Source of the DNA: a virus
Strand: one strand, 5' to 3'
IMG/VR virus record: IMGVR_UViG_3300024503_000015
Location: 124,001-188,000 of that record
Length of the DNA: 64,000 nt
Each line of letters begins with the position of its first letter. Positions within the stretch are counted from its first letter, which is position 1. Of the stretch, positions 19,366 through 40,474 are shown one piece after another. The translations under genes were made by a program, and so were the position numbers. The notes beneath the pieces are model-generated. The model did no database searches and was not told where the DNA came from. It saw only the letters and a program-made list of their open reading frames with translations.

Positions 19366-20207
19366 ACAGCCATATCTGCTTTAATAGCAGGATCTGGATT
19401 ATAGTTTTCCAACATAAAATCGTCGACTACATAGTCGGCGATTTTTTTTCCTACTGTAATAAACAATGTTGGTAATTGCTTTGGGGTGCGGGCTAGTTGT
19501 TCATTGACTGCGTCAATATGATTATTGTAGATGTGACAGTCTCCCCCAGTCCATACAAAATCGCCTACTTTTAAATTACACTCTCTAGCAATAATATGTG
19601 TAAGTAAACTGTAACTGGCAATGTTAAATGGTACACCTAAGAACATATCGCAACTACGTTGATATAGTTGACAACTTAGATACCCGTCAGTAACATTAAA
19701 TTGACTTAATATATGACATGGCGGTAATGCCATTTGATCGAGCTCTCCGGGATTCCATGCAGTCATAATATGTCTACGACTACCTGGATCTTTCTTAATC
19801 CCTTCGATTAAATTCTCAAGTTGATCGATGTCGGAGTTTAGAAAAGGTCGTTGCCAATGACGCCATTGTACTCCGTAAACCCGACCTAGATCGCCTTCGA
19901 ACTTTGCTTTTGGTTTCCAGTAATCTGCTTCTGCATTAGCAGTCCAAATAGTATTTTTACTGGAGTCTCTTGTGCCATGTAGGATTTCTGCAAGACGGCG
20001 TTCGTCGCCGCTACCTTCTAAAAACCAAAGAAGTTCCGAAACTACTGCTCGCCAAGCGAGCTTCTTAGTAGTAACTGCGGGAAAACCTTCTTGCAGATTA
20101 AAACGCATTTGATAACCAAACACGCTACGAGTACCTACACCCGTCCTATCAGTCTTGTTCTTTCCGTTTTCTAGTATTTGTTTTAGTGCTTCGTGATATT
20201 GTTTCAT
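19362..20207 (-). CDS. thyA: Thymidylate synthase
   Basis: 281 residues, full length for ThyA, which methylates dUMP to dTMP using methylene-tetrahydrofolate. Visible signatures are RTGVGTRSVFG (21-31), SELLWFLEGSG (57-67), RRH at 144-146, the catalytic cysteine C164 in PPCH, RSCDMFLGVPFN (184-195) and CHIYNNHIDAV near the C-terminus. The start lies inside folA, with a 59-base overlap, so the two folate-linked enzymes are tightly coupled. The 3' end meets the structural operon tail to tail with a 4-base overlap and no visible terminator. Confidence 0.97.
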   Translation of the reverse strand: MKQYHEALKQILENGKNKTDRTGVGTRSVFGYQMRFNLQEGFPAVTTKKLAWRAVVSELLWFLEGSGDERRLAEILHGTRDSSKNTIWTANAEADYWKPKAKFEGDLGRVYGVQWRHWQRPFLNSDIDQLENLIEGIKKDPGSRRHIMTAWNPGELDQMALPPCHILSQFNVTDGYLSCQLYQRSCDMFLGVPFNIASYSLLTHIIARECNLKVGDFVWTGGDCHIYNNHIDAVNEQLARTPKQLPTLFITVGKKIADYVVDDFMLENYNPDPAIKADMAV

Positions 20208-20682
20208 TGTGATATTCTTCTACTATACAGGTTCCTAAGTTAACAGTTTGATGTAATTTCATACCATCTAAGAACTCTGTTAAATCTATACTAGTATCGT
20301 TTAAGTATTCGCCTTGTATTCTAGTTAAGTAAACTTTATCTAAAACTGGTTTGCTTTGTAATAGTAAATTTGGTCCACCGATTACAAATATGTTTTTGCG
20401 TCTATTTGTCTGTTTTAAACTTTTTAATGCTTCGCAGGCATCGCCGCGAATTTGTTCTATATCTTCACGTTCTAAAAACTTGTTAGTAAAAAGAACATTT
20501 AATCGTCCAGGTAATGGGCTAGGCATATCGGGACTTTCCCAAGTCTTACGACCCATAACAACGACTTGATTTTGTGTAACGGATTTAAACCATTTCATAT
20601 CGTCCTTGTTACTAGGCCACGGTAACGACCCTTTCCACCCCATACCACCTATATCATCTACTGCAAATAAAGCCGCTATCAT
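20149..20682 (-). CDS. folA: Dihydrofolate reductase
   Basis: 177 residues. N-terminal MIAALFAVDDIGGMGWKGSLPW is the DHFR cofactor/Met20 region; D28 in NKDDMKWFK is the likely proton-donor acidic residue; VVMGRKTWES (41-50) and FVIGGPNLL near residue 110 bind NADPH. It regenerates tetrahydrofolate used by ThyA, which overlaps its 3' end. The C-terminal 20 residues are basic and hydrophilic and lie in the overlap with thyA, so they may be a recent extension of the reading frame. Confidence 0.95.
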   Translation of the reverse strand: MIAALFAVDDIGGMGWKGSLPWPSNKDDMKWFKSVTQNQVVVMGRKTWESPDMPSPLPGRLNVLFTNKFLEREDIEQIRGDACEALKSLKQTNRRKNIFVIGGPNLLLQSKPVLDKVYLTRIQGEYLNDTSIDLTEFLDGMKLHQTVNLGTCIVEEYHNETISRSTKTNTRKRKEQD

Positions 20683-27079: not shown

Positions 27080-27528
27080 GAAACCTCAGACTTGCCTTCG
27101 GCAATCTTTTTAACATTAATAAATCCAGCACCTCTATCTGACATATCGATGCCCTCTTCGCTGGCTACATTTTTGCATAGTTCTCTAAACCAACGATCCA
27201 CAATTTCTTCATCAGGATCGCCATCAAATCCATAACCCGCTTGTTTTAATTGTACTACAAATTCATCGTTCCAGTCAATCTCGAAGAAACCATTCTTTAA
27301 GTTATCTTTATTGACATGTGTCTCCAAAACAGCGACCCAAGGTTCTCCTTTGGCTGTAGCACGGTCTTTTGGAGTCATTTTAGCCAATTCTTCTTCGCGT
27401 TTGGCTACTGCTTCTTTGGCTGTTGCTTCTTCAGCACGGGCAAGTGCTTCTGCACGTTCTTTTTCTAGACGTTCTTTTTCTGCTTCTAATTTGTCTATGC
27501 CAAATAATTTTTTAATAATTGCTTTCAT
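27076..27528 (-). CDS. Hypothetical protein with N-terminal coiled coil
   Basis: 150 residues from the ATG at 27528, preceded by GGGGGAA; a longer frame upstream lies inside the 2OG oxygenase gene and is not used. Residues 14-55 are a highly charged coiled coil (EAEKERLEKERAEALARAEE). The C-terminal domain is acidic (FEIDWNDEFVVQLKQAGYGF). No family recognised. Confidence 0.7.
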   Translation of the reverse strand: MKAIIKKLFGIDKLEAEKERLEKERAEALARAEEATAKEAVAKREEELAKMTPKDRATAKGEPWVAVLETHVNKDNLKNGFFEIDWNDEFVVQLKQAGYGFDGDPDEEIVDRWFRELCKNVASEEGIDMSDRGAGFINVKKIAEGKSEVS

Positions 27529-28195
27529 GTTTCCCCCATACCCGCGATTGCGGATAAAAAAATGCGTTTTCGTTTTGCCCCATATCCCAAATAATACTGC
27601 CCATTGTATTTCTTTCATTTAGTGGCAACGATTGAATAAAAGTATTTGTACTATAACGAACACCTTTAGTTATTGGTTTAACTTCGTGTACCCAAAGAGG
27701 ATCTGCTGGAAAAATCATAGCATCTCCTTTATTCAATTTAACTTCGTATCTGCCATTCCAAAAAGTAAATTCGCCACCTTCATAGTCGTCATTTAATGAA
27801 ATAGTACAACTGGCGTGAATCATTTCCTCCCAATCCACATGAGGATGTATCCATTCGCCGACTTCGTATTTCATAAGTCGGTGCATGTGGGAAAATCTTA
27901 AAGATTTTTTTAATGCTGTAGTGTGAAACGCTTTAAACTCTTCTAGATATGTTATCCAATCTTCGATAATTTTATTTGTATGATTATGTACTACTAAAAA
28001 GTTTTCTGTATCAGGAATTAACTCTACTCTTTTAAAAGTAGAAGTAGTCATTTTATTAGTTACGGCGTGTATGCAACTTTCTTGAACCGCACTGGCAGAA
28101 CGCAATTCGTATTCGTCAATTAACGAATTGCATTGGTCTTCTGTTAATGCGTTTCTAACAACAAAAATTAAATCGGATAACTTTATATCTTCCAT
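27512..28195 (-). CDS. 2-oxoglutarate/Fe(II)-dependent oxygenase (prolyl-4-hydroxylase-like)
   Basis: 227 residues. The iron-binding facial triad is visible as H119-V-D121 (HPHVDWE) and H170 (WVHEV), and R180 ten residues later fits the 2OG carboxylate anchor. Core strands FTFWNGRYEVKLNKGDAMIF complete the jelly roll. Aquatic T4-like phages often carry such enzymes and their substrate is generally unknown. Here the gene directly follows queE and lies near folE, so hydroxylation of a modified base or its precursor is possible, but protein hydroxylation is equally allowed. Confidence 0.85.
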   Translation of the reverse strand: MEDIKLSDLIFVVRNALTEDQCNSLIDEYELRSASAVQESCIHAVTNKMTTSTFKRVELIPDTENFLVVHNHTNKIIEDWITYLEEFKAFHTTALKKSLRFSHMHRLMKYEVGEWIHPHVDWEEMIHASCTISLNDDYEGGEFTFWNGRYEVKLNKGDAMIFPADPLWVHEVKPITKGVRYSTNTFIQSLPLNERNTMGSIIWDMGQNENAFFYPQSRVWGKHESNY

Positions 28196-29059
28196 TTATG
28201 TTCCCCACTCATTTTTAAAGAGTGGAACTTGTAATCTATCGCTGTAGCGTAAACCGTTTTTCATTGCTAGTTCCGCTACACGCCTGTTGTTAAGAGTATA
28301 GACACTTTCAACGCCACCCACGGGCATAAGATATATAGGACCGGTAAAACCATTTTCTCTATAAATGTCAGCAGTTTCAATTGCTTCCTCCGCATCTTCT
28401 TCTGTGGCCACTACAAATTTAAGATATGTATGACCGTATTCTTCGTATTCACAAACTACGTCTGGACGAATTGCTTCGTGACGTTCTTCACCGGAGCAAC
28501 TTAATTTAGCACTAACACTAAATGTAACTTCTCGCCAAAAATCTTTATCGCTGTGATATTTCCATGTGTGCAGATATTGCTTGAACTCGTCGGTGAGTTT
28601 TTGAGTACCATTCGTTTCAAATGTAATCTCTTTTAAGTTTGTCATTTTTGGATGGTCGAGCAAGTCTGGATACGCTCGTTGCCATCCAAGCAAAGGTTCC
28701 CCTCCGGTAATGACCAAGTGTTCGTCTCGCCATTCGTTGAAGGGTAGAATCTCTGCGATCCTGTCTGCGATGGCGTCTGAAGTGAGCATTGGACTAAGAT
28801 CCTTAAAGCGAGGATCCCAACTAGCATAACTATCACAGCCCGTAGATACCAAAGGAAGTTCTTCATATTTTTTATATGGGGTTCGTTCATGTTGGATTGC
28901 AATATCTTCAACTTCTGTACTTAGTTCACCTTTTGGTAATCCAAAGCCAGCACATTTAAAGTTACAACCAAATGTTCTCAAGAAAACAGACGGTACACCC
29001 ATGTAACGTCCTTCGCCTTGAATACTATAAAATAATTCTGCAATTTTTAATTTGCTCAT
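28196..29059 (-). CDS. queE: 7-carboxy-7-deazaguanine synthase-like radical SAM enzyme
   Basis: 287 residues. QueE converts 6-carboxy-tetrahydropterin to CDG, the second pathway-specific step to preQ0. Seen: IAELFYSIQGEG (7-18), VFLRTFGCNFKCAGFG (25-40), ITGGEPLLGW for SAM binding near 117-126, FETNGT, and LMPVGG near residue 245. The cluster cysteines are unusual: C32 and C36 (CxxxC) are followed not by the usual xxC but by an insertion, with the next candidate cysteine at C75 (STGCDSY). folE, the first pathway step, lies four genes upstream. Confidence 0.88.
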   Translation of the reverse strand: MSKLKIAELFYSIQGEGRYMGVPSVFLRTFGCNFKCAGFGLPKGELSTEVEDIAIQHERTPYKKYEELPLVSTGCDSYASWDPRFKDLSPMLTSDAIADRIAEILPFNEWRDEHLVITGGEPLLGWQRAYPDLLDHPKMTNLKEITFETNGTQKLTDEFKQYLHTWKYHSDKDFWREVTFSVSAKLSCSGEERHEAIRPDVVCEYEEYGHTYLKFVVATEEDAEEAIETADIYRENGFTGPIYLMPVGGVESVYTLNNRRVAELAMKNGLRYSDRLQVPLFKNEWGT

Positions 29060-29520
29060 ATACAGTCACCTTGTTCTGCCAGTTTACTGGCGCTTGATTT
29101 TTCTTTACCTGCTTGTCTAAACAGTTTAACATCTTTAATTGCAGATTTCAATGTTTCGGCATAATTCAGTGCCTGTTGTTCAGTCATAGAAATAGTTGTT
29201 TCAACGGTCACTGCACCAGTTGTCCAAAGTTGCCAAGTTACTTTCAAACGAGTCCATAGCCCATTAATTAAATCTTTAACAAACCAATCAATCTCTTGTA
29301 GATACGGACTATCAATATCGTATCTTTTTTCAACTAGTTCAGACCAATAATCAGTTTTAGCAGTTGCGTAAATGTTTACATTAATACCAGTCTCACTAGA
29401 TTCAACTTCTACATTGTGATCGTGATACTCTTGCCCGCAACCGCAGACAATTTGATAAAACTTAGTGTCGCCAAAGTCACTGCGTTTTAGAATTCCTTCT
29501 GCTGGTTGCTCTAATTTCAT
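29056..29520 (-). CDS. Conserved hypothetical protein between folE and queE
   Basis: 154 residues, beta-rich N-terminal half with a CGCGQEYHDH segment (26-35) that could bind metal, then a helical C-terminal part (TEQQALNYAETLKSAIKDV). Overlaps queE by ATGA. No family recognised. Its place in the folE-queE transcript suggests, but does not show, a link to base metabolism. Confidence 0.65.
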   Translation of the reverse strand: MKLEQPAEGILKRSDFGDTKFYQIVCGCGQEYHDHNVEVESSETGINVNIYATAKTDYWSELVEKRYDIDSPYLQEIDWFVKDLINGLWTRLKVTWQLWTTGAVTVETTISMTEQQALNYAETLKSAIKDVKLFRQAGKEKSSASKLAEQGDCI

Positions 29521-29837
29521 TGTTTGAACATCTCTAAGTTAATAATTTTAGCAACACGCTCGCCAATATCTTCTCCGTTAGGAATCACATAAGTTTGACT
29601 TTCGTGTCTATCTTTACGGTCATCGTAGTGTCTTACATTTAAAATTTTACCACCGACGGCGGTGCTTAATTCGAAAGTGATTCGTCCTTCACCTTCTGCA
29701 CGACCGCGTTCTATTGCTTGTGCTGTTCCGATTGCCAATTTATACTCTCTTTCTTTCATAGTTGCTTCTTCGTACTTGTGTCGATTATCCCACATATCGC
29801 GGACTTTTCCATACAACCATTTATCGACAAAATTCAT
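29517..29837 (-). CDS. Small conserved hypothetical protein
   Basis: 106 residues from the ATG at 29837, which overlaps the upstream stop (ATGA) and lies 8 bases after GGAG; two in-frame ATGs slightly upstream are less well placed. N-terminal helix rich in K/E/R (NRHKYEEATMKEREYKLAIG), then a beta hairpin region. Function unknown. Confidence 0.6.
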   Translation of the reverse strand: MNFVDKWLYGKVRDMWDNRHKYEEATMKEREYKLAIGTAQAIERGRAEGEGRITFELSTAVGGKILNVRHYDDRKDRHESQTYVIPNGEDIGERVAKIINLEMFKQ

Positions 29838-30049
29838 TTGCATGTCTCCAACCATTTATCAAGAATATTTACAGCATCATTGAAATCGATACCATATACT
29901 TCTGCACTGATAACATTGTCTTTGATTTGTATATCAAACGGAACAGTTCCGTTAAATCGAAAATCTTCGGGAACATCTGTCTCTACAATATACTTGTGTA
30001 GATTTTTTGCTCTATTAATTAAATTAGTCGCCATGTCTACTGAATTCAT
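29834..30049 (-). CDS. Small hypothetical protein
   Basis: 71 residues, acidic, helix-strand pattern (MATNLINRAKNLHKYI; FDIQIKDNVISAEVYGIDF). It starts inside the folE stop (ATGA) and ends inside the next start, so it is part of a coupled run folE to queE. Function unknown. Confidence 0.6.
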   Translation of the reverse strand: MNSVDMATNLINRAKNLHKYIVETDVPEDFRFNGTVPFDIQIKDNVISAEVYGIDFNDAVNILDKWLETCK

Positions 30050-30744
30050 CTTGGTGCAAACTCCTGTTGTAGTTTAATGTTATCAAAGAACTCTTTCTTT
30101 GTACCAGCATCGTCTTTGAACGCACCTTTAAGTACAGTAGTTTGAGTTAATGAACTATGTGCCATAATGCCACGATTCTCACAGCATCCATGAACTGCCT
30201 GAATATAAACGCCAATATCACTTGCGCCAGTGGCCTTTTCAATTTCTCTGGCTATGTCGTTACACAATTCTTCCTGTAAGGTACCACGACGAGCGCACCA
30301 TTGCGCGATTCGTGTGTATTTTGACAGCCCAATGAGTTTTTGGGCGGCGATGATTCCGATGTAGGCAACACCAGAAACAGGCTGATGATGATGACTACAC
30401 ATACTACGAAGCTCACTCCTAACCACCAACATACCCTCATAACGATCTTCGCTATCGTTAGGAAACGCTGTTGCATCTGGTGCTGGTTCATATCTTCCTG
30501 CCATTATTTCGTTAAAGTACATTTTTGCTAATCGTTTCGCTGTACCGTGCGAGTTAGGATCTGTCTCTCTGTCAATAAGAAGTTTGTCTAAAACACTTTC
30601 AAATGCCTCAGTTGCTTCTTTGATTAGTTGTTCTTTGACTAGATCAGATTCGATGTATTCGCTGATGTTATCTCCTGCCCAGAATCTTTTTCCGTCTAGG
30701 ACCATCTTTTCGCGAATCGCTTGTGCTAAATTTTTTTCTGACAT
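30046..30744 (-). CDS. folE: GTP cyclohydrolase I
   Basis: 232 residues. It converts GTP to dihydroneopterin triphosphate, the shared first step of folate and preQ0 synthesis. Zinc and active-site motifs are SMCSHHHQPVSG (C116, H118/H119) and VHGCCENRG (C187, C188). The usual CEHH is CSHH here. Many phages encode FolE together with QueE for 7-deazaguanine synthesis, and queE lies downstream in the same run. It also stands beside the folA/thyA folate theme. Transcribed from a sigma70-type promoter with a short leader hairpin. Confidence 0.93.
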   Translation of the reverse strand: MSEKNLAQAIREKMVLDGKRFWAGDNISEYIESDLVKEQLIKEATEAFESVLDKLLIDRETDPNSHGTAKRLAKMYFNEIMAGRYEPAPDATAFPNDSEDRYEGMLVVRSELRSMCSHHHQPVSGVAYIGIIAAQKLIGLSKYTRIAQWCARRGTLQEELCNDIAREIEKATGASDIGVYIQAVHGCCENRGIMAHSSLTQTTVLKGAFKDDAGTKKEFFDNIKLQQEFAPR

Positions 30745-30781
30745 TATTTCTCCGAGTTATAGACGAGGATGTCTATGTAAT

Positions 30782-30810
30782 ATAATATAGTTTATTTAGG
30801 TTTTTGTCAA
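30782..30810 (-). promoter_or_regulatory. Sigma70-type promoter before folE
   Basis: On the - strand TTGACA (30810-30805), a 17-base spacer, TATTAT (30787-30782). The leader contains a 6-bp inverted repeat ATAGAC/GTCTAT (30759-30776) just before the ribosome site. Confidence 0.8.
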
Positions 30811-31023
30811 CTAAGTGCGTATACTTTTCTTATCAATATGTTGTTGTTCATATCGTAATCTACGGCATTCTTCCCTGACTGTATTAGGGATATCAGGATG
30901 CCATTCTGCCATCCCGCAATCATAGATGCGAGTTTGACTACCGTAATCGGTAAAAATAAGAATAAGCACAGCCGCTATTAAAGCGACTGCGGCTGTAATC
31001 TTTCCGATAATAGTATCCGACAT
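30811..31023 (-). CDS. Small membrane-anchored protein
   Basis: 70 residues. Residues 7-25 (GKITAAVALIAAVLILIFT) form one membrane segment with the short N-terminus probably inside. The soluble part (DCGMAEWHPDIPNTVREECRR) holds two cysteines and a basic C-terminus. Similar one-pass peptides occur in T4-like phages without assigned roles. It overlaps the upstream gene by 46 bases. Confidence 0.65.
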   Translation of the reverse strand: MSDTIIGKITAAVALIAAVLILIFTDYGSQTRIYDCGMAEWHPDIPNTVREECRRLRYEQQHIDKKSIRT

Positions 31024-31211
31024 AAGTCAGCATCCTTTTTTGATTTGAATGTAAATTTCATGTAGTCGTGTTGTGGATGACTTTCGTATCTTCCGCCAGG
31101 TAGGCCAAATACTTCGAGCACCATGGCGCAAGTTTCATTCCACCAAAAACCTGATTGCCCGTCCCAATGGACGTAGATATTATTCTGATCTTCCACTGGT
31201 GCAACTATCAT
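30978..31211 (-). CDS. Small hypothetical protein
   Basis: 77 residues, Trp-rich (IYVHWDGQSGFWWNETC). No transmembrane segment. The C-terminus resembles a small ferredoxin-like beta-alpha-beta end (YMKFTFKSKKDADLCRILL). Overlaps both neighbours, so coupled translation is likely. Function unknown. Confidence 0.6.
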   Translation of the reverse strand: MIVAPVEDQNNIYVHWDGQSGFWWNETCAMVLEVFGLPGGRYESHPQHDYMKFTFKSKKDADLCRILLSERLQPQSL

Positions 31212-31380
31212 TCCAAAGTTCTTGTGCTCTGCGCTTATAGTCTTCTAATTCCCACACGGCTAATTTTTCACGAAATACTTCTTCGCTTAATCCGTGCCAG
31301 CCGATACAGTCTCCTGTAGGACTACGACCACAACCGCAAGTTCCAATTTTCTTTCCTTCTTCAGGTACTCTTACTTGCAT
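31180..31380 (-). CDS. Small CDGSH-like iron-sulphur protein (variant motif)
   Basis: 66 residues from the ATG at 31380 with AAAGGA upstream; an in-frame start further back lies inside the HIT gene. Residues 15-29 read CGCGRSPTGDCIGWH, a close variant of the CDGSH 2Fe-2S site (C-x-C-x2-S-x3-P-x-C-D-G-x-H) with ligand candidates C15, C17, C25 and H29, but one residue shorter and with IGW in place of DG(S). The rest is a charged helix. A redox or electron-transfer helper role is possible. Confidence 0.65.
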   Translation of the reverse strand: MQVRVPEEGKKIGTCGCGRSPTGDCIGWHGLSEEVFREKLAVWELEDYKRRAQELWNDSCTSGRSE

Positions 31381-31744
31381 TTTTATAATTTCCTTTACTT
31401 GGTATAACGTGACGAACCCCGCCACGAGGGTCTTCCATATCACCCTTGCGTCTAGGGATCATGTGTATATGAGGATACATTACTGTTTGGCCAGCAGTCT
31501 CGCCACAGTTTTGTCCGACATTAAAAGCGTCCCAACGTTCAGATTGGACACCATCGAACCCGAACTTGTATGCTCCTTTGAAACATTCGACGATGTTGGT
31601 AAAACGTTCATAGGTTGGCACAAAAAGCAAATGTCCTTCCGTAACTGGGTAGGCATCGTTGAAGACCCAATAGTCTTTTGTTCTGTACTCGATACTAGTC
31701 CATGGTGCTCTGCGTTCATCTAGTGCCCTTTCTAAATCAGTCAT
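31361..31744 (-). CDS. HIT-family nucleotide hydrolase/transferase
   Basis: 127 residues from the ATG at 31744, which overlaps the upstream stop (ATGA). The histidine-triad signature is visible as QTVMYPHIHMIPRRKGD with H92 and H94, and the N-terminal YWVFNDAYPVTEGHLLFVPT strand region fits the fold. HIT proteins act on dinucleoside polyphosphates, nucleoside phosphoramidates or nucleotidylated molecules. It is cotranscribed with a phosphoribosyltransferase, suggesting nucleotide salvage or signalling clean-up. Confidence 0.85.
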   Translation of the reverse strand: MTDLERALDERRAPWTSIEYRTKDYWVFNDAYPVTEGHLLFVPTYERFTNIVECFKGAYKFGFDGVQSERWDAFNVGQNCGETAGQTVMYPHIHMIPRRKGDMEDPRGGVRHVIPSKGNYKNASKST

Positions 31745-32292
31745 AACCAAAATTCTTCCCAAGGATAAACAAGCCAACAATCTTCTTGTCGCTTGTCTAC
31801 GGTCCAAACATGATAGTCTGGATCTTTAAACTCACTGCCGTAATTATGTGTTAATACAGCAAAACGAACATTGTCTCCCCATACTTGATTCCATGCTTCA
31901 TCGTTAGGAAAACAACCACTGGGCCAATCTTTCTTAATCCAATTAAGAGTAGATCCTTGATCGTTAATATCGTCTACAATTAAGATTTTCTTTTTAAGAC
32001 GTTCTAAATGTTTGTGATCGCCCCAAATGTGCCTTTCGTCATTGGGAACAACTCCCAAGGCATCTTCGGCCATCCAAAGATTACTTTCGCAATCGTTTTT
32101 ATTATCGCGAAGGCTGACATTAAGTGTGTGCATCTTAATGCCAGTATATTGACTTAGTAAGTTAGCCGGAACAAGACCACCGCGTGTAATACCTACAATA
32201 TAGTCAGGCCTCCAATTATGTTCAGACATTTGGCGAGCAATTTCTAAACATGCGCCTTCAACTTGTGACCAACTGTAGTATACTTTCTTCAT
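31741..32292 (-). CDS. Phosphoribosyltransferase
   Basis: 183 residues from the ATG at 32292 (ATGA overlap with the upstream stop). The PRPP-binding loop is ILIVDDINDQGST (103-115), and GITRGGLVPANLLS (34-47) matches the substrate/hood region of purine-type enzymes such as xanthine or guanine phosphoribosyltransferase. It may salvage purine bases from degraded host nucleotides or act on a modified base. The exact base cannot be told from sequence. Confidence 0.85.
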   Translation of the reverse strand: MKKVYYSWSQVEGACLEIARQMSEHNWRPDYIVGITRGGLVPANLLSQYTGIKMHTLNVSLRDNKNDCESNLWMAEDALGVVPNDERHIWGDHKHLERLKKKILIVDDINDQGSTLNWIKKDWPSGCFPNDEAWNQVWGDNVRFAVLTHNYGSEFKDPDYHVWTVDKRQEDCWLVYPWEEFWL

Positions 32293-32519
32293 GCAGTTAA
32301 CCCATAGGCCAATGATTGACATTCTTCTTTAGTCATAAAGAAATTATAAGTTTGTGTACCAACAACTTCACCGTCTTTAAGACTTTCTTGAACCATATCG
32401 ATACTAAACAAACCTTTAGGGCTTAGTACTTCGTGTTTCTTTAATGTTAGCCTAAAACCGGCGTGTTCTTTGACAACCATTTCTTTATAAGTATCTCTAA
32501 CTGATTCATGTAGTTCCAT
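32289..32519 (-). CDS. Small hypothetical protein
   Basis: 76 residues from the third of three consecutive ATG codons, which is best spaced from AAAGGAG. Beta-rich middle (HAGFRLTLKKHEVLSPKGLF), no cysteine apart from one near the C-terminus. Stop overlaps the phosphoribosyltransferase start. Function unknown. Confidence 0.6.
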   Translation of the reverse strand: MELHESVRDTYKEMVVKEHAGFRLTLKKHEVLSPKGLFSIDMVQESLKDGEVVGTQTYNFFMTKEECQSLAYGLTA

Positions 32520-32958
32520 CATCATCTCCTTTAATTGCGTCCCACGTTCTATATTTGGCTAATGCCTTAATATAGTCATCATACATCTTTTTTAACTTTG
32601 GATGCTTCTTTTCTAGTTTAACATCTCGCTCGGGAATTTGCAAGACTTTTTCAATTGTGTTTAACCTTTCTTCTAGGTCAACACCATTTAATACCATTCG
32701 ACCTTTAACTTCTAACTCCGGTGGATCGTTTTTGGCAACCATCACCGGATTGGTAGTAGGATTAGCCCAAGTTACATTTGTACCTGTAGTATAAGTTAAC
32801 GGCACAGATGTAGTGCCGGCTCCGGTTGAAATCGTATATCCACTGCCAGAGCCGCCTGTGCCGTTCGATACTAAAACACTACCTGAACCGGCACCGGAAC
32901 CTGCTATGCCGCCGGCTGTATTAAGTATTACGCTTCCGTGATTGTAAGTATAGCTCAT
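32506..32958 (-). CDS. Gly/Ser-rich protein with conserved helical C-terminus
   Basis: 150 residues in two parts. Residues 10-65 are Gly/Ser/Thr-rich (GSGAGSGSVLVSNGTGGSGS), like a fibre or disordered tether. Residues 75-145 are charged and helical (LNGVDLEERLNTIEKVLQIP; KHPKLKKMYDDYIKALAKYR). The mix suggests a virion-associated or scaffolding protein, but this is inference. The start overlaps the cupin gene by 38 bases. Confidence 0.65.
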   Translation of the reverse strand: MSYTYNHGSVILNTAGGIAGSGAGSGSVLVSNGTGGSGSGYTISTGAGTTSVPLTYTTGTNVTWANPTTNPVMVAKNDPPELEVKGRMVLNGVDLEERLNTIEKVLQIPERDVKLEKKHPKLKKMYDDYIKALAKYRTWDAIKGDDDGTT

Positions 32959-33376
32959 TTGGTATCCATTTATTATTAACGAGAAATCCCCATTCTCTCT
33001 TTTGCGGACCTGGCATAAAAAGTGTCCAACACTCTACGTTGGGATCAATTTCAATTCTATGAAAACTGTTGGCACTACAAATTCTAAAGTGTCCAGGCTT
33101 TCTCCATTTGGCAATTTCACAGACCTTTACTCCCTGGCTGTTAAATTGAGGAATCCATTCCCAATAGCCACCTTTTAGAATAAGTGTGGCATAAGGCCAT
33201 GGGTGATCATGCACATCATCTGGATCACCTTTATGAAACTTGTGTAAGAATACATTAAATGGAAACCATTTACGATCCTTTAAAAATAGATAATAACGTG
33301 TAAGTAACGGCTCGTCACAGGTACGATCCATAATAATACGCTTGCGACCGAGACGTTCTAACAGTTTTAATATCAT
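32921..33376 (-). CDS. Cupin-like protein
   Basis: 151 residues. HKFHKGDPDDVHDHPWPYAT (45-64) followed by a glycine turn (ILKGGYWEW), and a later FRICSANSFHRIE strand, match the two cupin motifs with histidines able to hold a metal. Cupins of this kind include dioxygenases, isomerases and sugar epimerases. It overlaps the glycosyltransferase gene by ATGA, so a role in making or changing a sugar donor or product is plausible. It is unproven. Confidence 0.7.
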   Translation of the reverse strand: MILKLLERLGRKRIIMDRTCDEPLLTRYYLFLKDRKWFPFNVFLHKFHKGDPDDVHDHPWPYATLILKGGYWEWIPQFNSQGVKVCEIAKWRKPGHFRICSANSFHRIEIDPNVECWTLFMPGPQKREWGFLVNNKWIPNELYLQSRKRNT

Positions 33377-34446
33377 ACAAGTCTTTCTAAGAGTCCATTT
33401 GCAGAAAAGAAATTTTCAGTTAAGTCTTGAGTTTGTTTTCTAAGTTGTGGTAAAAACTTTTCATAGTTATCCATATACTGGATAATCTTTGCACATATTT
33501 CTGGACGGTGTGCTTTATATGCTTCGAAACTTTCAGTCCATTCACTAGGATACTTAAAAGTATCATAGCCCATTTCACTGTAACTAAGTCTATCTGGCAC
33601 CATAGGAATAGCATCTACAACAGCGCCTTCATACCAACTAATCCCTAATGTCTCTTGTAAGTTTGCAGAGAACACTAATTTCGATTCGCCTAACAAGTTA
33701 TGATATTCATTTTTTGTTAGTTGTTGATCCTGACAGACTACGAACTCGTACTGTGGCAAGTGTTCTTTTAAATCTCTAAAAATTTCAACTTGCTTCTCGG
33801 GTGCGATGCGATGAGGGAAAAGAATTAAATCACGTTTTTTCATCCCTTTATATGGAGTTAATGTATCTTCCATATACTCCATTGGCCAACCTGTGCGTAC
33901 AATTTTTCCTTTATCGATATATGATGCTTTTGCAGTATCGTAATCTATGTTTAAAAGATTATGACAAAACATTTCAATATGGAATGTTGTAGCAAAGTAG
34001 TTATGATCTATAGCATGAAAGAAACTCTTTTCAGCATTTCTGACCCAAGGAGCATCGCCAATTAGACGACCTAAAAAGTCCTGTGGATCGTAACTACCGG
34101 CATGCCATAGTGCGTGAATAGTTACAGGAATCTGTAACAGTTCACTCATATACTTTAGGTTGATGATACCAGGGTGCCAAGCATCAGTAAAGATGAAGTG
34201 ATCATTAGGAGCCACTGATCCGGCGCAAAACAACCTACCCATTTGCTCAACTTGAGCAGACTTGTATATATTGGTGCCACCAAAATTAAGAAAAGCACCA
34301 GGAGTAGTGGCTGAAGGAATATCCGTAGGCCCAGATAAAACTTGAACATCGTGTCCTCTCTTTCTCAGGATAGCCGGTAGGTGGGTCTTCCACTGCGCTG
34401 TATAGCGTGTTTCTACCGGCTCAAGGTCTACTAAGTAGACGGTCAT
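33373..34446 (-). CDS. Glycosyltransferase, GT-B fold, GT4-like
   Basis: 357 residues. The C-terminal domain shows the retaining GT4 pattern: PHRIAPEKQVEIF (211-223) and an E-x7-E motif, E265 to E273 (ETLGISWYEG), for binding the nucleotide-sugar. The N-terminal domain supplies the acceptor side (FTDAWHPGIINLKYMSELL). In T4 the alpha-glucosyltransferase that decorates DNA also has a GT-B fold. Here the gene sits in one operon with a DpdA-like base transglycosylase and oxidoreductases, so DNA-base or small-molecule glycosylation should be considered besides surface glycan changes. Confidence 0.85.
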   Translation of the reverse strand: MTVYLVDLEPVETRYTAQWKTHLPAILRKRGHDVQVLSGPTDIPSATTPGAFLNFGGTNIYKSAQVEQMGRLFCAGSVAPNDHFIFTDAWHPGIINLKYMSELLQIPVTIHALWHAGSYDPQDFLGRLIGDAPWVRNAEKSFFHAIDHNYFATTFHIEMFCHNLLNIDYDTAKASYIDKGKIVRTGWPMEYMEDTLTPYKGMKKRDLILFPHRIAPEKQVEIFRDLKEHLPQYEFVVCQDQQLTKNEYHNLLGESKLVFSANLQETLGISWYEGAVVDAIPMVPDRLSYSEMGYDTFKYPSEWTESFEAYKAHRPEICAKIIQYMDNYEKFLPQLRKQTQDLTENFFSANGLLERLV

Positions 34447-34676
34447 TGGCGACCATTCCTGTAGTTGTTATTGTACCCGTTGTTATTACGGGGACGATTT
34501 TCAAATCGTCTGTCGTTGTTATAACGACGAGGACGCTTAGACGCCTCGTAAGCCTGCCAAGTTTTACTTTGGCGGTTATACAAGTCTGCCTCATTGTAAG
34601 GCAGAAGGTTGAATCTGCAAAAATCTAGCAGATTGTCAAGATCGTCAAAAATTTGAACGACTTCTTTTTTCATCAT
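34443..34676 (-). CDS. Small protein with Asn/Arg-rich tail
   Basis: 77 residues; two adjacent ATGs, either could start. Residues 1-45 are helical and acidic to neutral. Residues 48-77 are Arg/Asn/Tyr-rich (RPRNNNGYNNNYRNGRQ), a disordered tail likely to bind nucleic acid or to phase-separate. The start is 4-7 bases after AAAGGA. No family recognised. Confidence 0.65.
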   Translation of the reverse strand: MMKKEVVQIFDDLDNLLDFCRFNLLPYNEADLYNRQSKTWQAYEASKRPRRYNNDRRFENRPRNNNGYNNNYRNGRQ

Positions 34677-34684
34677 TGTTTCCT

Positions 34685-35080
34685 TTAGTATTTGATGAAT
34701 GAACCATTTTCTCCGTCTTCGGAGACCTCAATCCAAATCTCGCGATTTGGATACTTCTTGCTAATGATGTCATGTAATTCGTCAGACATCATTTCACAAC
34801 TCTTGTAGTCAAGGCTTATAGTGGCACCTTGACCATTATACAACGACTCGAGCCATCGTTTGAATTGGATGAATTCGATGTCCCTGTCATTGTGTTGCAC
34901 ACTGATCCACACCCTGAAATGAAAGATGTGGCGATGAGGGTGACCCAAAAACGATACGTCATATTCGTCTCCTGTTGCTAGATTAGGATCTGTTAGTGCC
35001 GCAGGATACTTATGGATACCTTCTTTGCGGAAAGTTACCCAGATCATTTTGTTTGGTCTAATGTCTTGTTTGATAATCAT
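34685..35080 (-). CDS. Probable divergent QueD/PTPS-like protein
   Basis: 131 residues from the ATG at 35080 (ATGA overlap). QueD makes 6-carboxy-tetrahydropterin and has three zinc histidines in the order H...HxH. Here GIHKYPAAL is followed about 25 residues later by HRHIFHFRVWISV, then RDIEFIQFKRWLESL in the position of the QueD DFxxLK segment, and a C-terminal REIWIEVSEDGENGSF in place of VWET. Order and spacing fit the tetrahydropterin-synthase fold, but overall likeness is weak. It would fill the gap between FolE and QueE. Confidence 0.45.
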   Translation of the reverse strand: MIIKQDIRPNKMIWVTFRKEGIHKYPAALTDPNLATGDEYDVSFLGHPHRHIFHFRVWISVQHNDRDIEFIQFKRWLESLYNGQGATISLDYKSCEMMSDELHDIISKKYPNREIWIEVSEDGENGSFIKY

Positions 35081-35616
35081 GTTGGTGTATCTTGAGTGTA
35101 CAAATCCCAATGAGTATACTTGTCTTTAGTCATTAGGCTTTGTAAATGATGTGTCCACACACCTGGATTTGTAGCACCCCAAGTTCGGTCATCCAGTTTG
35201 AGTGTGGCATTGTAGTTGAGTTGATTAATGTAGGGTAACTTGACACTAATCATAGGTACAAACTTGGGATATTCGTTATAAGCAGACTCTAGTACGCCTT
35301 CGATGTGTTCAACACCAAAGTCTAGAGCTACCCAATAGCCTGCTTTTAGACAGCCTATAATAACTTCGTCCCATGCTTTGTATTCTTCGTGTGAAATACT
35401 TTTAGGATTAAAACTTTGACTAGTGCCAAAGTAAATTTGTTTAATGCGTTTGTTTTCGTCTAAGTATGCTTGTGTGTCACCAGCAATACGTAGTATTTCT
35501 TCTAGCGGAGGAGTGCCTACTACAAATAGTGTATACATACCATAGCAAATAGTATGTTCGACTTCGTAGCCTGTAAAGTAGACAATGTCTTGTCTTTCTT
35601 CAGTGTTTAATCCCAT
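35077..35616 (-). CDS. Conserved protein of unknown function in the modification operon
   Basis: 179 residues, mixed alpha/beta (YGMYTLFVVG; AGYWVALDFGVEHIEGVL; FVPMISVKLPYINQLNYNAT). No cysteine cluster and no ATP-binding loop, so it is not QueC. Overlaps the QueD-like gene by ATGA and the dehydrogenase gene by 10 bases. Conservation of this neighbour pair across phages would be informative. No function assigned. Confidence 0.7.
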   Translation of the reverse strand: MGLNTEERQDIVYFTGYEVEHTICYGMYTLFVVGTPPLEEILRIAGDTQAYLDENKRIKQIYFGTSQSFNPKSISHEEYKAWDEVIIGCLKAGYWVALDFGVEHIEGVLESAYNEYPKFVPMISVKLPYINQLNYNATLKLDDRTWGATNPGVWTHHLQSLMTKDKYTHWDLYTQDTPT

Positions 35617-36497
35617 TTAATATAACCTCTGCTATAACCATTTGGACGATCCACACCATCCGCAAATGCTTGTTGCCATTCTGTGTTACGATTATAACCT
35701 TTTGTCCAGAAAGAATCAACCTCTAGTTTACCGTTTTCAATCATCCAACGTGCTTCAAACATAGCACCAATAAATTCTTCTGTTCTTGGACTTGGTTTAA
35801 CTGTAGTAACAGCCTTCCAAAGTTGTTGTTGTGCTTCTTCTTTACTTACTGCTTTACCAACAGCATCAATGATTACTGCATTGTTATTTAGATTAATGTC
35901 GGTACCTAGTTGATATTTTCCAGATAAATCTACTATCAAATCGTAACTGTCGGTAGTACCTAACAGTAACGCATCTCCCCAAAGTTCCTGATTACTAGAA
36001 CCTAGTACATCTACTTCAAGTTCTGGAAAATGATGTGCCAGGTTATTAAAAACTACCCATGCAAGGAAACCACTACCTAGGATTAAGCATTTACCATTTT
36101 GTCTACGTTCAAAAAGAGTATACGCTTGTCTAATACAGTTAACACCACAGGCCACTGGTTCTAAAATGTAACGTGGATGTAGTTCTAAAACTGTTACAAA
36201 CTCACCGTCACGACAGTTGTAATAATCTGCGTATGCTGGTTCGCCGCGGGTAGCAACATAATCGCCTACTTTAACACCTAATACACTGGCACCGACTTTA
36301 GTTACGATTCCTAGACCTTCGTGACCTTGCATGTGTAGTGGTAAAGGTCCAAAGTTGCCCTGCATCATATCTATGTCACTGCGACATACACCAGTCATAA
36401 CTGCTTTAACTTCAATTTCAGTTGACGTAGGTTCTGGCTTTGCATATTCTACTTCTTCAAAGTAACCTTGTCCAGTTGTTTGTAGACAGCGTGTCAT
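35607..36497 (-). CDS. Medium-chain zinc dehydrogenase-like protein
   Basis: 296 residues from the ATG at 36497 (ATGA overlap). Catalytic-zinc candidates are C38 (MTGVCRSD) and H59-E60 (QGHEGLG), with an LEPVACGVNCIRQ segment mid-protein. KCLILGSGFLAWVVF starts the nucleotide-binding domain. Shorter than typical 340-residue alcohol dehydrogenases, and the four-cysteine structural-zinc loop is missing. It may oxidise or reduce a sugar or alcohol on a base, together with the following Gfo/Idh/MocA enzyme. Confidence 0.8.
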   Translation of the reverse strand: MTRCLQTTGQGYFEEVEYAKPEPTSTEIEVKAVMTGVCRSDIDMMQGNFGPLPLHMQGHEGLGIVTKVGASVLGVKVGDYVATRGEPAYADYYNCRDGEFVTVLELHPRYILEPVACGVNCIRQAYTLFERRQNGKCLILGSGFLAWVVFNNLAHHFPELEVDVLGSSNQELWGDALLLGTTDSYDLIVDLSGKYQLGTDINLNNNAVIIDAVGKAVSKEEAQQQLWKAVTTVKPSPRTEEFIGAMFEARWMIENGKLEVDSFWTKGYNRNTEWQQAFADGVDRPNGYSRGYIKWD

Positions 36498-37372
36498 AGT
36501 TTTTCTATTCTTTCGTGTATCCAAAGGTCAATTTCTAACTGTACTTTCCAGTACTCGTCATTATTTAGGTTTTCTACAGCATCTTTAATCATATTTAGGT
36601 ACGCTTCTTCTGGACACCAGCCTAACTCAAATACATCTTTGGTATTATCTTGATTAATAAATGTAATAGCACTACGTTCAACAGTCATACTGCGCCAGTT
36701 AGCACGGCAGTTCCATTTAGAACCAAATCCAATGTGACACTGGTCGTCTACATCATAAGTTCCATTTGGGTTTACAGTACCATACTCTGTGCTTTCGATA
36801 TCTTTTAACAGCCATGATTGTATAGATGATTCGCCGTTAACTTTTTCTATGCGCCAGTCTGGATGTAGTGCAATATACAAACTTAATAAGTGTGGCATTA
36901 AGTCCCTACTAACTCCGCCAAATGCTAGTTTGCGTGTAGTAAACCAACTACCTGGGCTAGGAATACAGTTCTTTCTAATCCATTCGATGTCTACATTCTT
37001 TGCTACTTTAGCCTTTTCCTGTAATTCTGCAATATTGTCACGCCACATATTATTTTTAACCATCATAAATCGTGTGCGTGGAAATCTTTTACATAATTTA
37101 GCCCATTCGTTTCTATTAATCAGTCCAGGCTTTTCAATAAAGACAATTTTACTGATAGGAGCCAGTTTAACGGCTAATTCTAAATGCGTAAAATTTGGTG
37201 TGCAAATATGTACGGTGTCAAAAGACCCGTGAAGTAATATGGCTGGTTCTATACTAGGGAAGTCGGCATTTTTATTAATGTCTGTATCGACAGTACAAAC
37301 TTCATAACCTAATTGAGTTAGGACAGATTTATATAACTGTCCTATTCCCATTCCTACAACTAAACTTTTCAT
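36494..37372 (-). CDS. Gfo/Idh/MocA-family oxidoreductase
   Basis: 292 residues. SLVVGMGIGQLYK (3-15) is a variant NAD(P) glycine motif, VHICTPNFTHLELAV (54-68) and EKPG (80-83) are the family's dinucleotide and catalytic-lysine motifs. Family members oxidise or reduce sugars, inositols and related compounds. It overlaps the zinc dehydrogenase by ATGA, so the two probably act in sequence on one substrate. Confidence 0.85.
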   Translation of the reverse strand: MKSLVVGMGIGQLYKSVLTQLGYEVCTVDTDINKNADFPSIEPAILLHGSFDTVHICTPNFTHLELAVKLAPISKIVFIEKPGLINRNEWAKLCKRFPRTRFMMVKNNMWRDNIAELQEKAKVAKNVDIEWIRKNCIPSPGSWFTTRKLAFGGVSRDLMPHLLSLYIALHPDWRIEKVNGESSIQSWLLKDIESTEYGTVNPNGTYDVDDQCHIGFGSKWNCRANWRSMTVERSAITFINQDNTKDVFELGWCPEEAYLNMIKDAVENLNNDEYWKVQLEIDLWIHERIEKL

Positions 37373-37626
37373 CTATATGTTGGTAGTTCGTTAACACATT
37401 TAATAAGAGATCCGGATTGTTTGCCCGCTAATTGATGTAGCGCATAATCCGGAGAGGATACACAGGCTTCGTGCCCATTGAATTTATCTGCTAGGGCAAT
37501 GGTGTTGCCAGTTTCTGCAAATTTAATTACAAGATAGTAGTCGTTTGGACCCACGGCATCTGCCGTTTTATAAAACAAACCAAAACTTAATACTGCTAAA
37601 ACACCAATGCCTAGTAGTTTTTTCAT
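37369..37626 (-). CDS. Small exported protein
   Basis: 85 residues. A classical Sec signal peptide is visible (KK, then LLGIGVLAVLSFGLF, then TADA cleavage near residue 24). The mature part of about 60 residues has two cysteines (HEACVSS, LIKCVNE) that could form a disulphide in the periplasm. It lies between the DpdA-like and Gfo genes. A superinfection-exclusion or envelope role is conceivable. Function unknown. Confidence 0.7.
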   Translation of the reverse strand: MKKLLGIGVLAVLSFGLFYKTADAVGPNDYYLVIKFAETGNTIALADKFNGHEACVSSPDYALHQLAGKQSGSLIKCVNELPTYR

Positions 37627-39170
37627 TTTACGCCTTCTTCGAGTTCGTCAAGTTTAGCAATTTCATCATCGGTAAATTCTTCACCGTGCTCTAATTGTAC
37701 ACTCTCTTCCTCTACTTCGTCAAACAGTTTGGCAAATTGTGTACTTGCGTTTACAGTCTTCTTACCTACTGCTCCGCGAGTTCCAATAATACTTTGCCAA
37801 AATTTATTATACTCTTCAACGACTTTGTCTGCTTCTGCACGACTACTAGTAGCAAAAATGGCTTCTACTACATCTTTAAAGAATAGTCTATCAAACCGTT
37901 CTTCTACTAACATAGCAGGAACAATGCCCAAATCGTATTGACGATTGGCTTCTTGTACAGCATTAATGTGCATCCAAACATTATGGCCCATTAAGATAGC
38001 GTAACTAAAACTATCCCACGAAGTTTTACCTTCCTTGCCAATCTTGTTTAGATCCCCGGGCCCGTAAATACAAACATCTTTAATTTGAACCCCGTCAATA
38101 ATTGGACTATTGTCAAAGTTTTTAAAATGTCCGTCCTGTACTACTGCATCGCGGAATAGTCTAGTATCTTTACTATATTTTTTATTATCGATACTAGGTA
38201 ACATTCTATATACCCACTTAGTTCTGTCTTGTGTTTCTGTTTGAACGTATACTTGTCCGTTTGCAGTTGCTAAGAATGGACTAGCACAGTCGAAACTAAT
38301 TGTAAAGTTAGGATTGTGATACTTGCGTACAGCACGTTGAATGTCTGTTAATAAACAAGCCCACTCTAATTTACTAGTACCTAAGAAGTGCATCCAGTCT
38401 TGTTTGCCCTGTTCAAGTAATCCGTCAAATCGTAATGCTACTAGGCGTTTTAATACCAAGTGTACATCACACATATTCTGACCACCCATGGCCCAACCGT
38501 TAAATGCACGGTCACCGTAGACAGTAGGATCGCAGTACTTCTTCATTCGGTCATACCAATCGTCTGCATCGGTATGATTTTCACCTTGGAGAACGTTTAA
38601 GAATTTACAATTACCATTGCGATTGTTTACAAACCAATCGTTGTTAATGTAAGTACCTTGAACTGCTTCTGCGTATGTAGTAATGCCTGTGGCTTTTTGT
38701 CCAGCAGGGCTACGAGCTACCCAAGCAGGGATATCAAGACACATACCATAGTCCATTAGACTATCCATCCACTTAAGAACCTGTTCACGTTTCTTTTGTG
38801 CTTTAGGACAGTTGGGATTCTTCCAATCGCCTTCCCATACACCTTTACCAATTTGGAAACCACCGGAGTCGCCTAGTACCCAACTAGTACTGCGATCTCT
38901 ATTACGAAACATATCTTCGCTGTGATCAACTTTGTTAAGGTCTAGATTAGCATGACCTGCACTATACAAGCAGTGGTCATAGTAGAACGCACCTTTTTCC
39001 GGTTCTAAGTAGTTTAGACTTTCTACTCCGTTTTTAAAACTAGCAGGAACTCTTGCCGGATCAACATAGTTTCCATATCTTTGTTTACCTATAAAGGTAC
39101 TATAGAAACCGCTAGTTGCCGGCAAAAAGTATGCGTAGTCGTTTTGTGTTGCGGTTAAATTTTTATTCAT
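37623..39170 (-). CDS. dpdA: DpdA-like 7-deazaguanine DNA transglycosylase (TGT superfamily)
   Basis: 515 residues. TGT signatures are clear: LGDSGGFQIGKG with nucleophile/acid candidate D101, NVLQGE (192-197, as VQGG), GWAMGGQ (225-231, as AIGGL) and ISFDCASPF with second aspartate D294. The spacing of the two aspartates is similar to bacterial TGT (89 and 264 in E. coli). The TGT C-terminal zinc cluster CxCxxC..H is absent, as in DpdA, which inserts preQ0-type bases into DNA. The C-terminal 50 residues are acidic. With folE, queE and a QueD-like gene nearby, exchange of guanine for a 7-deazaguanine in phage DNA is the best interpretation. A tRNA target is the alternative. Confidence 0.82.
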   Translation of the reverse strand: MNKNLTATQNDYAYFLPATSGFYSTFIGKQRYGNYVDPARVPASFKNGVESLNYLEPEKGAFYYDHCLYSAGHANLDLNKVDHSEDMFRNRDRSTSWVLGDSGGFQIGKGVWEGDWKNPNCPKAQKKREQVLKWMDSLMDYGMCLDIPAWVARSPAGQKATGITTYAEAVQGTYINNDWFVNNRNGNCKFLNVLQGENHTDADDWYDRMKKYCDPTVYGDRAFNGWAMGGQNMCDVHLVLKRLVALRFDGLLEQGKQDWMHFLGTSKLEWACLLTDIQRAVRKYHNPNFTISFDCASPFLATANGQVYVQTETQDRTKWVYRMLPSIDNKKYSKDTRLFRDAVVQDGHFKNFDNSPIIDGVQIKDVCIYGPGDLNKIGKEGKTSWDSFSYAILMGHNVWMHINAVQEANRQYDLGIVPAMLVEERFDRLFFKDVVEAIFATSSRAEADKVVEEYNKFWQSIIGTRGAVGKKTVNASTQFAKLFDEVEEESVQLEHGEEFTDDEIAKLDELEEGVK

Positions 39171-39739: not shown

Positions 39740-40474
39740 TTATTTGCTCTGTGCTGGCAAGATGTAATCATATACAGCAACACCGCTGTCAACAGTAATC
39801 TGCATAGCACCTGCATCTGCAATCTTCATAGTAATATTACCATCGAGATTTAAAATGCTTTGTACTTGTGCAACAGGCCATGACCATGTGTGCTTTAACT
39901 TGCCGCCAACATCGTGTTGGAATACAAAAGAACCTGCGTGTGTACTTGCATCACCGAAGAAGAATACAAGATTGTTATCTTCTGTACGAACTTGGAAAAC
40001 AGTTTCTTCACTGTGTGCCGCACTTTGTAACTTCAAACGACCAATTGCCGCCATGCTTGGTTCAAACTCAACTTCCCATGTTGCACCTTTGAACTTAACA
40101 GATTTTAGTTTTTCGTTAATAAGTTCTGATGCCATGAAACGATAATCGTTTTGGAAGTCACCTGCTTGGTTTTCAAAGTGCAAACCTACTGGAACTGTGT
40201 TGCCGTTACGTTCCGCAGTAACTACATCGATCTTTGCGTTTTCTTTATACTCTGGATTCTTCAAGTGAAGATTTAACTTGTCCAAGTTTGGCATACCAAA
40301 TGTGCCATCAAACTCTGATACTGGCTTGTGTGCAGTAGCAGTAACAATAACGCTACGATCCTCTGCCATTGATTCGATAGTTGTGCTATCTTTAGCACCT
40401 GTAATTTTTACCAAAGGCAAAAAGCCTAGGCTATGTGTATGTGCTACGATGTCGGTTAGAATATCTTTAATCAT
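39740..40474 (-). CDS. DNA polymerase sliding clamp (gp45-like)
   Basis: 244 residues, matching the ~220-230 residues of T4-type trimeric clamps. All-beta/alpha pattern with repeated amphipathic strands, and a C-terminal MQITVDSGVAVYDYILPAQ like the clamp's last strands. It lies directly downstream of the polymerase gene. In T4 the clamp both tethers gp43 and activates late transcription at ATAAATA promoters, which this phage also has. A strong promoter with an AAGGAG ribosome site precedes it, in line with high copy need. Confidence 0.75.
   Translation of the reverse strand: MIKDILTDIVAHTHSLGFLPLVKITGAKDSTTIESMAEDRSVIVTATAHKPVSEFDGTFGMPNLDKLNLHLKNPEYKENAKIDVVTAERNGNTVPVGLHFENQAGDFQNDYRFMASELINEKLKSVKFKGATWEVEFEPSMAAIGRLKLQSAAHSEETVFQVRTEDNNLVFFFGDASTHAGSFVFQHDVGGKLKHTWSWPVAQVQSILNLDGNITMKIADAGAMQITVDSGVAVYDYILPAQSK

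Follow-up and report, generated by a model that had tools for sequence, protein, structure and literature searches.

Enterobacteria phage 9g carries archaeosine in its DNA and encodes a DpdA of the DpdA1 type, and further subfamilies, DpdA3 (of Campylobacter phages) and DpdA4, are said to have been distinguished by Cui and co-workers in 2023. DpdA and DpdA2 were described in 2019, DpdA2 being a DNA-guanine transglycosylase, and Vibrio phage nt-1, whose enzyme is a DpdA2, carries dPreQ0 in its DNA (Hutinet 2019, PMC6884629). Jumbo phage PA5oct has been stated to possess a system for deazaguanine synthesis and incorporation; the passages making this statement name neither the gene, the subfamily nor a linked glycosyltransferase (Iyer 2021, PMC7824862). 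The locus analysed here is from IMG/VR record IMGVR_UViG_3300024503_000015 (270,181 bases), the source being a large freshwater-type phage. The window is the 64,000-nucleotide stretch at bases 124,001-188,000 of this record (window position + 124,000 = record position), and the rest of the record was also scanned. It encodes a 515-amino-acid protein (37623-39170, minus strand), for whose subfamily the label DpdAx is used. The fold of this protein, its catalytic residues, its profile similarity to DpdA2 and its co-occurrence with synthesis genes point to a predicted 7-deazaguanine DNA-modification system with a new DpdA subfamily, a reading given a probability of roughly four in five.

The DpdAx transglycosylase

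The initial annotation had placed the 515-residue product in the tRNA-guanine transglycosylase (TGT) superfamily by its motifs, and DSGGFQ (D101), GWAMGGQ and D294 were all present in the open reading frame (ORF), with the TGT zinc motif absent. The protein has no matches in Pfam, PHROG, NCBIfam or PADLOC, and the Pfam TGT model PF01702 finds nothing in the whole record. Of the marks of a canonical TGT, both PF01702 and the CxCxxC...H zinc site are missing. PDB sequence searches, using either the protein or the DpdAx family profile, returned only chance matches to mite allergens. As the Pfam TGT model gave no match, the link between DpdAx and TGT is taken from the fold and from profile-profile comparison. 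For an AlphaFold2 model of DpdAx, the window protein was combined with environmental homologues to give 28 sequences; the model has a predicted local distance difference test score (pLDDT) of 83 and a predicted template modelling score (pTM) of 0.80, and all 50 of the matches listed by Foldseek against the PDB are tRNA-guanine transglycosylases (best E 1.7e-6, probability 1.00).

By profile, 37623-39170 is negative for the TGT Pfam model and positive for DpdA2, with which the DpdAx alignment is joined by hhalign at P 1.6e-7 (best of 36 control ORFs, 0.034). An alignment was needed for this, as hhalign with a single sequence gave no link to nt-1 DpdA2. The profile alignment pairs the motifs DSGGFQ/DSGGLQ, LDIP/FDEIP, LQGE/QGN, HFLG/HMLG and ISFD/ISYD of DpdAx and DpdA2, respectively, while in the alignment with TGT FDCASPFLATANG of DpdAx stands opposite FDCVMPTRNARNG. 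D101, D146 and D294 are the equivalents of the TGT catalytic residues D102, D156 and D280; D101 and D294 align with DpdA2, and D294 additionally with TGT. Every one of 332 DpdAx homologues (265 distinct phage and 67 bacterial) keeps D101 and D146; D294 is found in 265/265 phage and 66/67 bacterial sequences (one gap), and none possesses the TGT zinc motif. The count for D101 is partly biased because DSGGFQ was among the patterns used to fetch the homologues; D146 was in no such pattern.

Named homologues comprise 11 PA5oct-like Pseudomonas phage records, Sinorhizobium phage Phosso and Vibrio phage 2.275.O, all annotated as hypothetical, the closest being that of PA5oct (33%). In IMG/VR at least 598 stretches match DpdAx, along with many distant ones; a search there with the PA5oct protein as query returned nothing. 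A large and common group of environmental phage proteins, unrecognised by Pfam, PHROGs and NCBIfam, is thereby placed in the DpdA superfamily. Tblastn with the window protein did not recover the nt-1 group, and the DpdAx profile misses the enzymes of phages 9g, nt-1, ACP17, Moby, X1 and BUCT-ZZ01, for which reason DpdAx is handled as a separate subfamily. Against CP220 the profile gave nothing at E <= 1, the DpdA3 gene of that phage not having itself been located. DpdAx is only remotely related to DpdA2, of which it is not a member by ordinary search, and by hhalign it does not belong to DpdA1 either.

Comparisons with DpdA2 of nt-1 and KVP40 show a shared TGT superfamily and motif order (DSGG-Q, D-P, QG, HxLG, S-D), and these too are large phages with FolE, QueD and QueE in their genomes. 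They differ in that the link to DpdAx is detectable by profile-profile comparison only, and in that nt-1 and KVP40 possess a canonical QueC but lack the glycosyltransferase family considered below. Phage 9g likewise has FolE, QueD, QueE and QueC pathway genes and an adjoining transglycosylase and clamp; its DpdA1, however, is of about 317 amino acids with no detectable sequence link to DpdAx, and its QueC match is strong.

Precursor synthesis genes

Two of the synthesis genes proposed in the initial annotation were recognised by library searches. FolE (GTP cyclohydrolase I; 30046-30744, minus strand) matches PF01227 (E 1.4e-38), and QueE, the radical S-adenosylmethionine enzyme 7-carboxy-7-deazaguanine (CDG) synthase (28196-29059, minus strand), matches PHROG 2076 (E 2.1e-54), its matches to the NCBIfam QueE models (1e-10 to 1e-13) falling under the cut-offs of those models. 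The cluster cysteines of QueE are C32, C36 and C75, the third lying 38 residues past the second rather than two; this long insert is common to BUCT-ZZ01, PA5oct, Vibrio phage 2.275.O, nt-1 and Moby and is not found in 9g.

The gene proposed as QueD-like (29056-29520, minus strand) was misassigned. No PF01242 or other QueD match was obtained for it in Pfam, NCBIfam or PADLOC, and nothing above chance in these libraries or in the phage collection (50,697 records), its best PHROG match being to a family of unknown function (0.0045). Nor is it conserved, being present in 16/23 near relatives of the locus and 0/53 distant ones. A genuine QueD (PF01242, E 2.4e-27; CRHLHGH) is located outside the window at record positions 209,559-210,116, minus strand.

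QueC had been reported as not visible, which holds for the window and not for the record. A short, divergent QueC-like PP-loop protein was found at record positions 36,756-37,355, plus strand (PF06508, E 1.9e-6; PHROG 1550, E 1.2e-18). It possesses YSGGLDS and a C-terminal CGRCDTC, its zinc site being C(x)12CxxCxxC compared with C(x)8CxxCxxC in canonical QueC (PMC13329287). Its PF06508 score is 28 bits against a cut-off of 22 when searched as a protein, and below the cut-off in the genome search. A PP-loop gene of phage X1 was considered as an analogue and rejected, showing no similarity. There is also a 165-residue ORF with no Pfam match (record 36,274-36,771), overlapping with the beginning of the QueC-like gene; its product may be a partner of the QueC-like protein. 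Neither QueF nor QueA was found in the record.

FolE, QueD and QueE occur together in all four of the DpdAx phages first found, namely this phage, PA5oct, Phosso and Vibrio phage 2.275.O. QueE is present in 19 of 19 long DpdAx records, whereas homologues of the window QueE occur in just 211 of the 50,697 phage-collection records.

Gene order, the linked glycosyltransferase and the predicted base

Neighbourhoods were compared at 76 related loci with at least 9 kilobases (kb) downstream of DpdAx (23 near and 53 distant relatives). FolE is found in 65/76 (21/23 near, 44/53 distant) and QueE in 63/76 (20/23 near, 43/53 distant). A common arrangement in relatives runs from DNA polymerase through clamp, DpdAx, small proteins and glycosyltransferase to FolE, phosphoribosyltransferase and QueE. 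The 889-residue DNA polymerase (40529-43198, minus strand; polymerase motifs as read) lies upstream of a sliding clamp homologue (39740-40474, minus strand; 33% identity, E 1e-41, to the annotated clamp of Phosso) that adjoins DpdAx. The polymerase-clamp-DpdAx order is kept in the relatives, and a clamp also adjoins dpdA in phages 9g and R7M. The phosphoribosyltransferase (31741-32322, minus strand; PF00156, E 2.2e-13) occurs in 56/76 of the loci and is a possible partner that would salvage released guanine.

A gene overlooked in the initial annotation, at 33373-34446 (minus strand), encodes a GT4/GT-B-type glycosyltransferase. PF00534 is matched by 12 of 17 members of its family (best 8e-12), the window member being recognised only through the family and not alone. 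Its AlphaFold2 model is poor (pLDDT 57), and Foldseek matches obtained with it count as weak support only. The window protein is 41% identical to the product of a PA5oct gene that overlaps DpdAx there. Of the 50,697 phage records, 20 contain a homologue, and DpdAx or DpdA2 is also present in 16 of these. Twelve, comprising 11 PA5oct-like records and Phosso, have DpdAx; in Phosso the glycosyltransferase gene lies beside clamp, FolE and QueE and far from DpdAx. Four further records, ACP17 in two copies, X1 and BUCT-ZZ01, have DpdA2, the two genes being adjacent in ACP17 and X1 (overlapping in ACP17, as in PA5oct) and separated by one gene in BUCT-ZZ01. The last four are similar Xanthomonas/Erwinia phages with the weakest match (25% over 65% of the length). 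PhiXhv-12, the sole one of these tested, encodes a 570-residue DSGGFQ protein (493-2205 of the fetched stretch) matching the DpdAx profile at 3e-8, which seems to be a further, third transglycosylase type. Its CTCPIC motif resembles the TGT zinc site, and its gene is far from the glycosyltransferase gene of that genome.

The glycosyltransferase gene is on the same strand as DpdAx in 167/167 loci. In IMG/VR, DpdAx is present at 55/55 near glycosyltransferase loci whose upstream DNA is long enough, and distant loci have DpdAx or DpdA2 in 43/44 cases and FolE in 44/44; these linkages are not independent, because the loci share long blocks of core genes. A scan of bacterial and archaeal genomes gave 78 loci, a few of which are probably phage contigs within metagenome bins; most others are from Alpha-, Beta- or Gammaproteobacteria, and recombinase genes are frequent in their vicinity. 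The glycosyltransferase is found in 14 loci, eight of which form a compact cassette of a PF02592 (VUT/YhhQ-type) transporter, glycosyltransferase and DpdAx; PF02592 was matched with one of the transporters, whose sequence then served to recognise the rest. YhhQ is the transporter of preQ0 (PMC6884629), and the cassettes indicate, largely independently, that glycosyltransferase and deazaguanine base go together. The glycosyltransferase is missing from the majority of DpdAx loci in bacteria, and about 30 have a conserved protein of about 576 residues (family unknown) about 1.7 kb upstream, with recombinases nearby.

The distribution of QueC differs with that of the glycosyltransferase. A strong QueC match is present in 8/8 DpdA phages that lack the glycosyltransferase (E 7e-45 or better; nt-1, KVP40, pf16, Moby, 9g, R7M, BcepGomr and Vibrio phage 2.275.O) compared with 1/7 possessing it: none was found in ACP17, BUCT-ZZ01, PA5oct or Phosso, that of X1 is partial, that of the phage studied here is divergent and that of PhiXhv-12 is strong (Fisher p about 0.0014, uncorrected for kinship and with records picked by search rank). 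This pattern suggests that, where the glycosyltransferase is in use, the base is frequently CDG and not preQ0; alternatively, a host QueC could supply the missing step. Linkage of the glycosyltransferase to the pathway suggests that the final base is further decorated, and from this linkage the enzyme most likely tailors the deazaguanine base.

In the predicted pathway, FolE and QueD would convert GTP to carboxytetrahydropterin, from which QueE would form CDG, and the divergent QueC-like protein may, as an optional step, convert CDG to its amide or nitrile. DpdAx would then replace guanines in the DNA of the phage with the deazaguanine, most likely near the replication fork, shielding the DNA from nucleases, and the glycosyltransferase would most likely then move a sugar onto the base. 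Dedicated glycosyltransferases also put sugars on modified bases in the glucosyl-hydroxymethylcytosine of T4 and the glycosylated queuosine of vertebrates, the base being another in T4 and the target tRNA in vertebrates. A bolder form of this proposal is that the phage DNA carries glycosylated 7-deazaguanine, the glycosyltransferase taking the place of QueC, so that CDG or its amide is inserted by DpdAx and then sugar-coated, with the same pair plus a base importer forming the compact cassette in alphaproteobacterial mobile elements; it is put forward tentatively, at a little under even odds. If true, such a sugar-coated altered base in DNA would be new, and none was found in the literature searched (Cui 2023 and an MMBR 2024 review were outside that search). 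The predicted hypermodified base could escape standard nucleoside screens for known deazaguanines, the bacterial cassettes are possibly protective, and the enzymes would be a pointer to means of writing sugar-tagged bases into DNA. Isolated phages available for testing are PA5oct, Paride, Phosso, ACP17 and X1.

The proposal of the initial annotation that FolE, QueD and QueE feed a DpdA-type enzyme is retained on fold, catalytic residues, DpdA2 profile and co-occurrence, with a different gene as QueD. Weighing against it are the moderate TM-scores of DpdAx to TGT (about 0.38 by query and 0.50 by target length), the weak sequence relationship to the single E. coli TGT (hhalign P 9e-4), a comparison with 9g DpdA1 no better than control ORFs (hhalign P 0.33), the detection of QueD in only 10 of 19 long DpdAx records (which are incomplete) and the dispersal of the pathway genes across the genome. 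DpdAx could instead be a phage tRNA-guanine transglycosylase modifying tRNA during infection, as its fold is that of the tRNA enzymes and queuosine synthesis uses the same precursors; this is considered improbable, given that no homologue has the TGT zinc motif, that the nearest profile is DpdA2, that QueA was found in none of seven phages of this kind and that the gene adjoins those of the polymerase and clamp. Still less credence is given to a scheme where the phosphoribosyltransferase makes a deazaguanine nucleotide for incorporation by DNA polymerase, the transglycosylase being secondary. The frequency of the phosphoribosyltransferase among the relatives and its position beside QueE in BUCT-ZZ01 fit such a scheme, but the transglycosylase is the more constant of the two, and a phosphoribosyltransferase could equally recycle the guanine freed by exchange.

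More serious is the possibility that the glycosyltransferase acts outside the deazaguanine pathway, its target being for instance another DNA base or sugars of the host surface, and that conserved gene order alone accounts for the linkage. The long core-gene block shared by many IMG/VR relatives, a poor structure model and an acceptor group that is not known all leave room for this explanation, which is judged a considerable though minority prospect. Against it, the glycosyltransferase recurs in phages that are not related to each other, next to members of two distinct DpdA families and with gene overlap in PA5oct and ACP17, and it is found in the bacterial cassettes with transporter and DpdAx. 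The thymidylate synthase of the window is moreover of the ordinary type (PF00303); a hydroxymethylcytosine pathway as the purpose of the glycosyltransferase was rejected, the window showing only this synthase and no sign of such a pathway.

Other genes of the locus and its relatives

Two small conserved proteins are encoded between DpdAx and the glycosyltransferase: one at 34685-35110 (minus strand; PHROG 17812, function unknown), present in 74/76 relatives, and one of 179 residues at 35077-35616 (minus strand; no family match), present in 68/76. The same interval contains genes for a Gfo/Idh/MocA oxidoreductase and an alcohol-dehydrogenase-like protein (35607-37372), found in 11/23 near and 5/53 distant relatives and possibly involved in sugar metabolism. 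Between FolE and the glycosyltransferase, genes for a HIT-domain protein and for one that matches a 'cysteine dioxygenase' PHROG (31361-33376) are frequent. A 2-oxoglutarate-Fe(II) oxygenase-like gene (27512-28195; PF13640, 1.9e-11) follows QueE and was seen in only three fetched loci. The gene for thymidylate synthase (2.5e-108) adjoins that for dihydrofolate reductase (PF00186, 8e-25) at 19362-20682.

For Vibrio phage 2.275.O, a gene directly downstream of DpdAx (10723-11835 of the fetched stretch) has a weak amidoligase match (PF12224, 1.8e-4). It occupies the place of the glycosyltransferase in PA5oct and perhaps encodes another tailoring enzyme; canonical QueC and QueF are also present in this phage.

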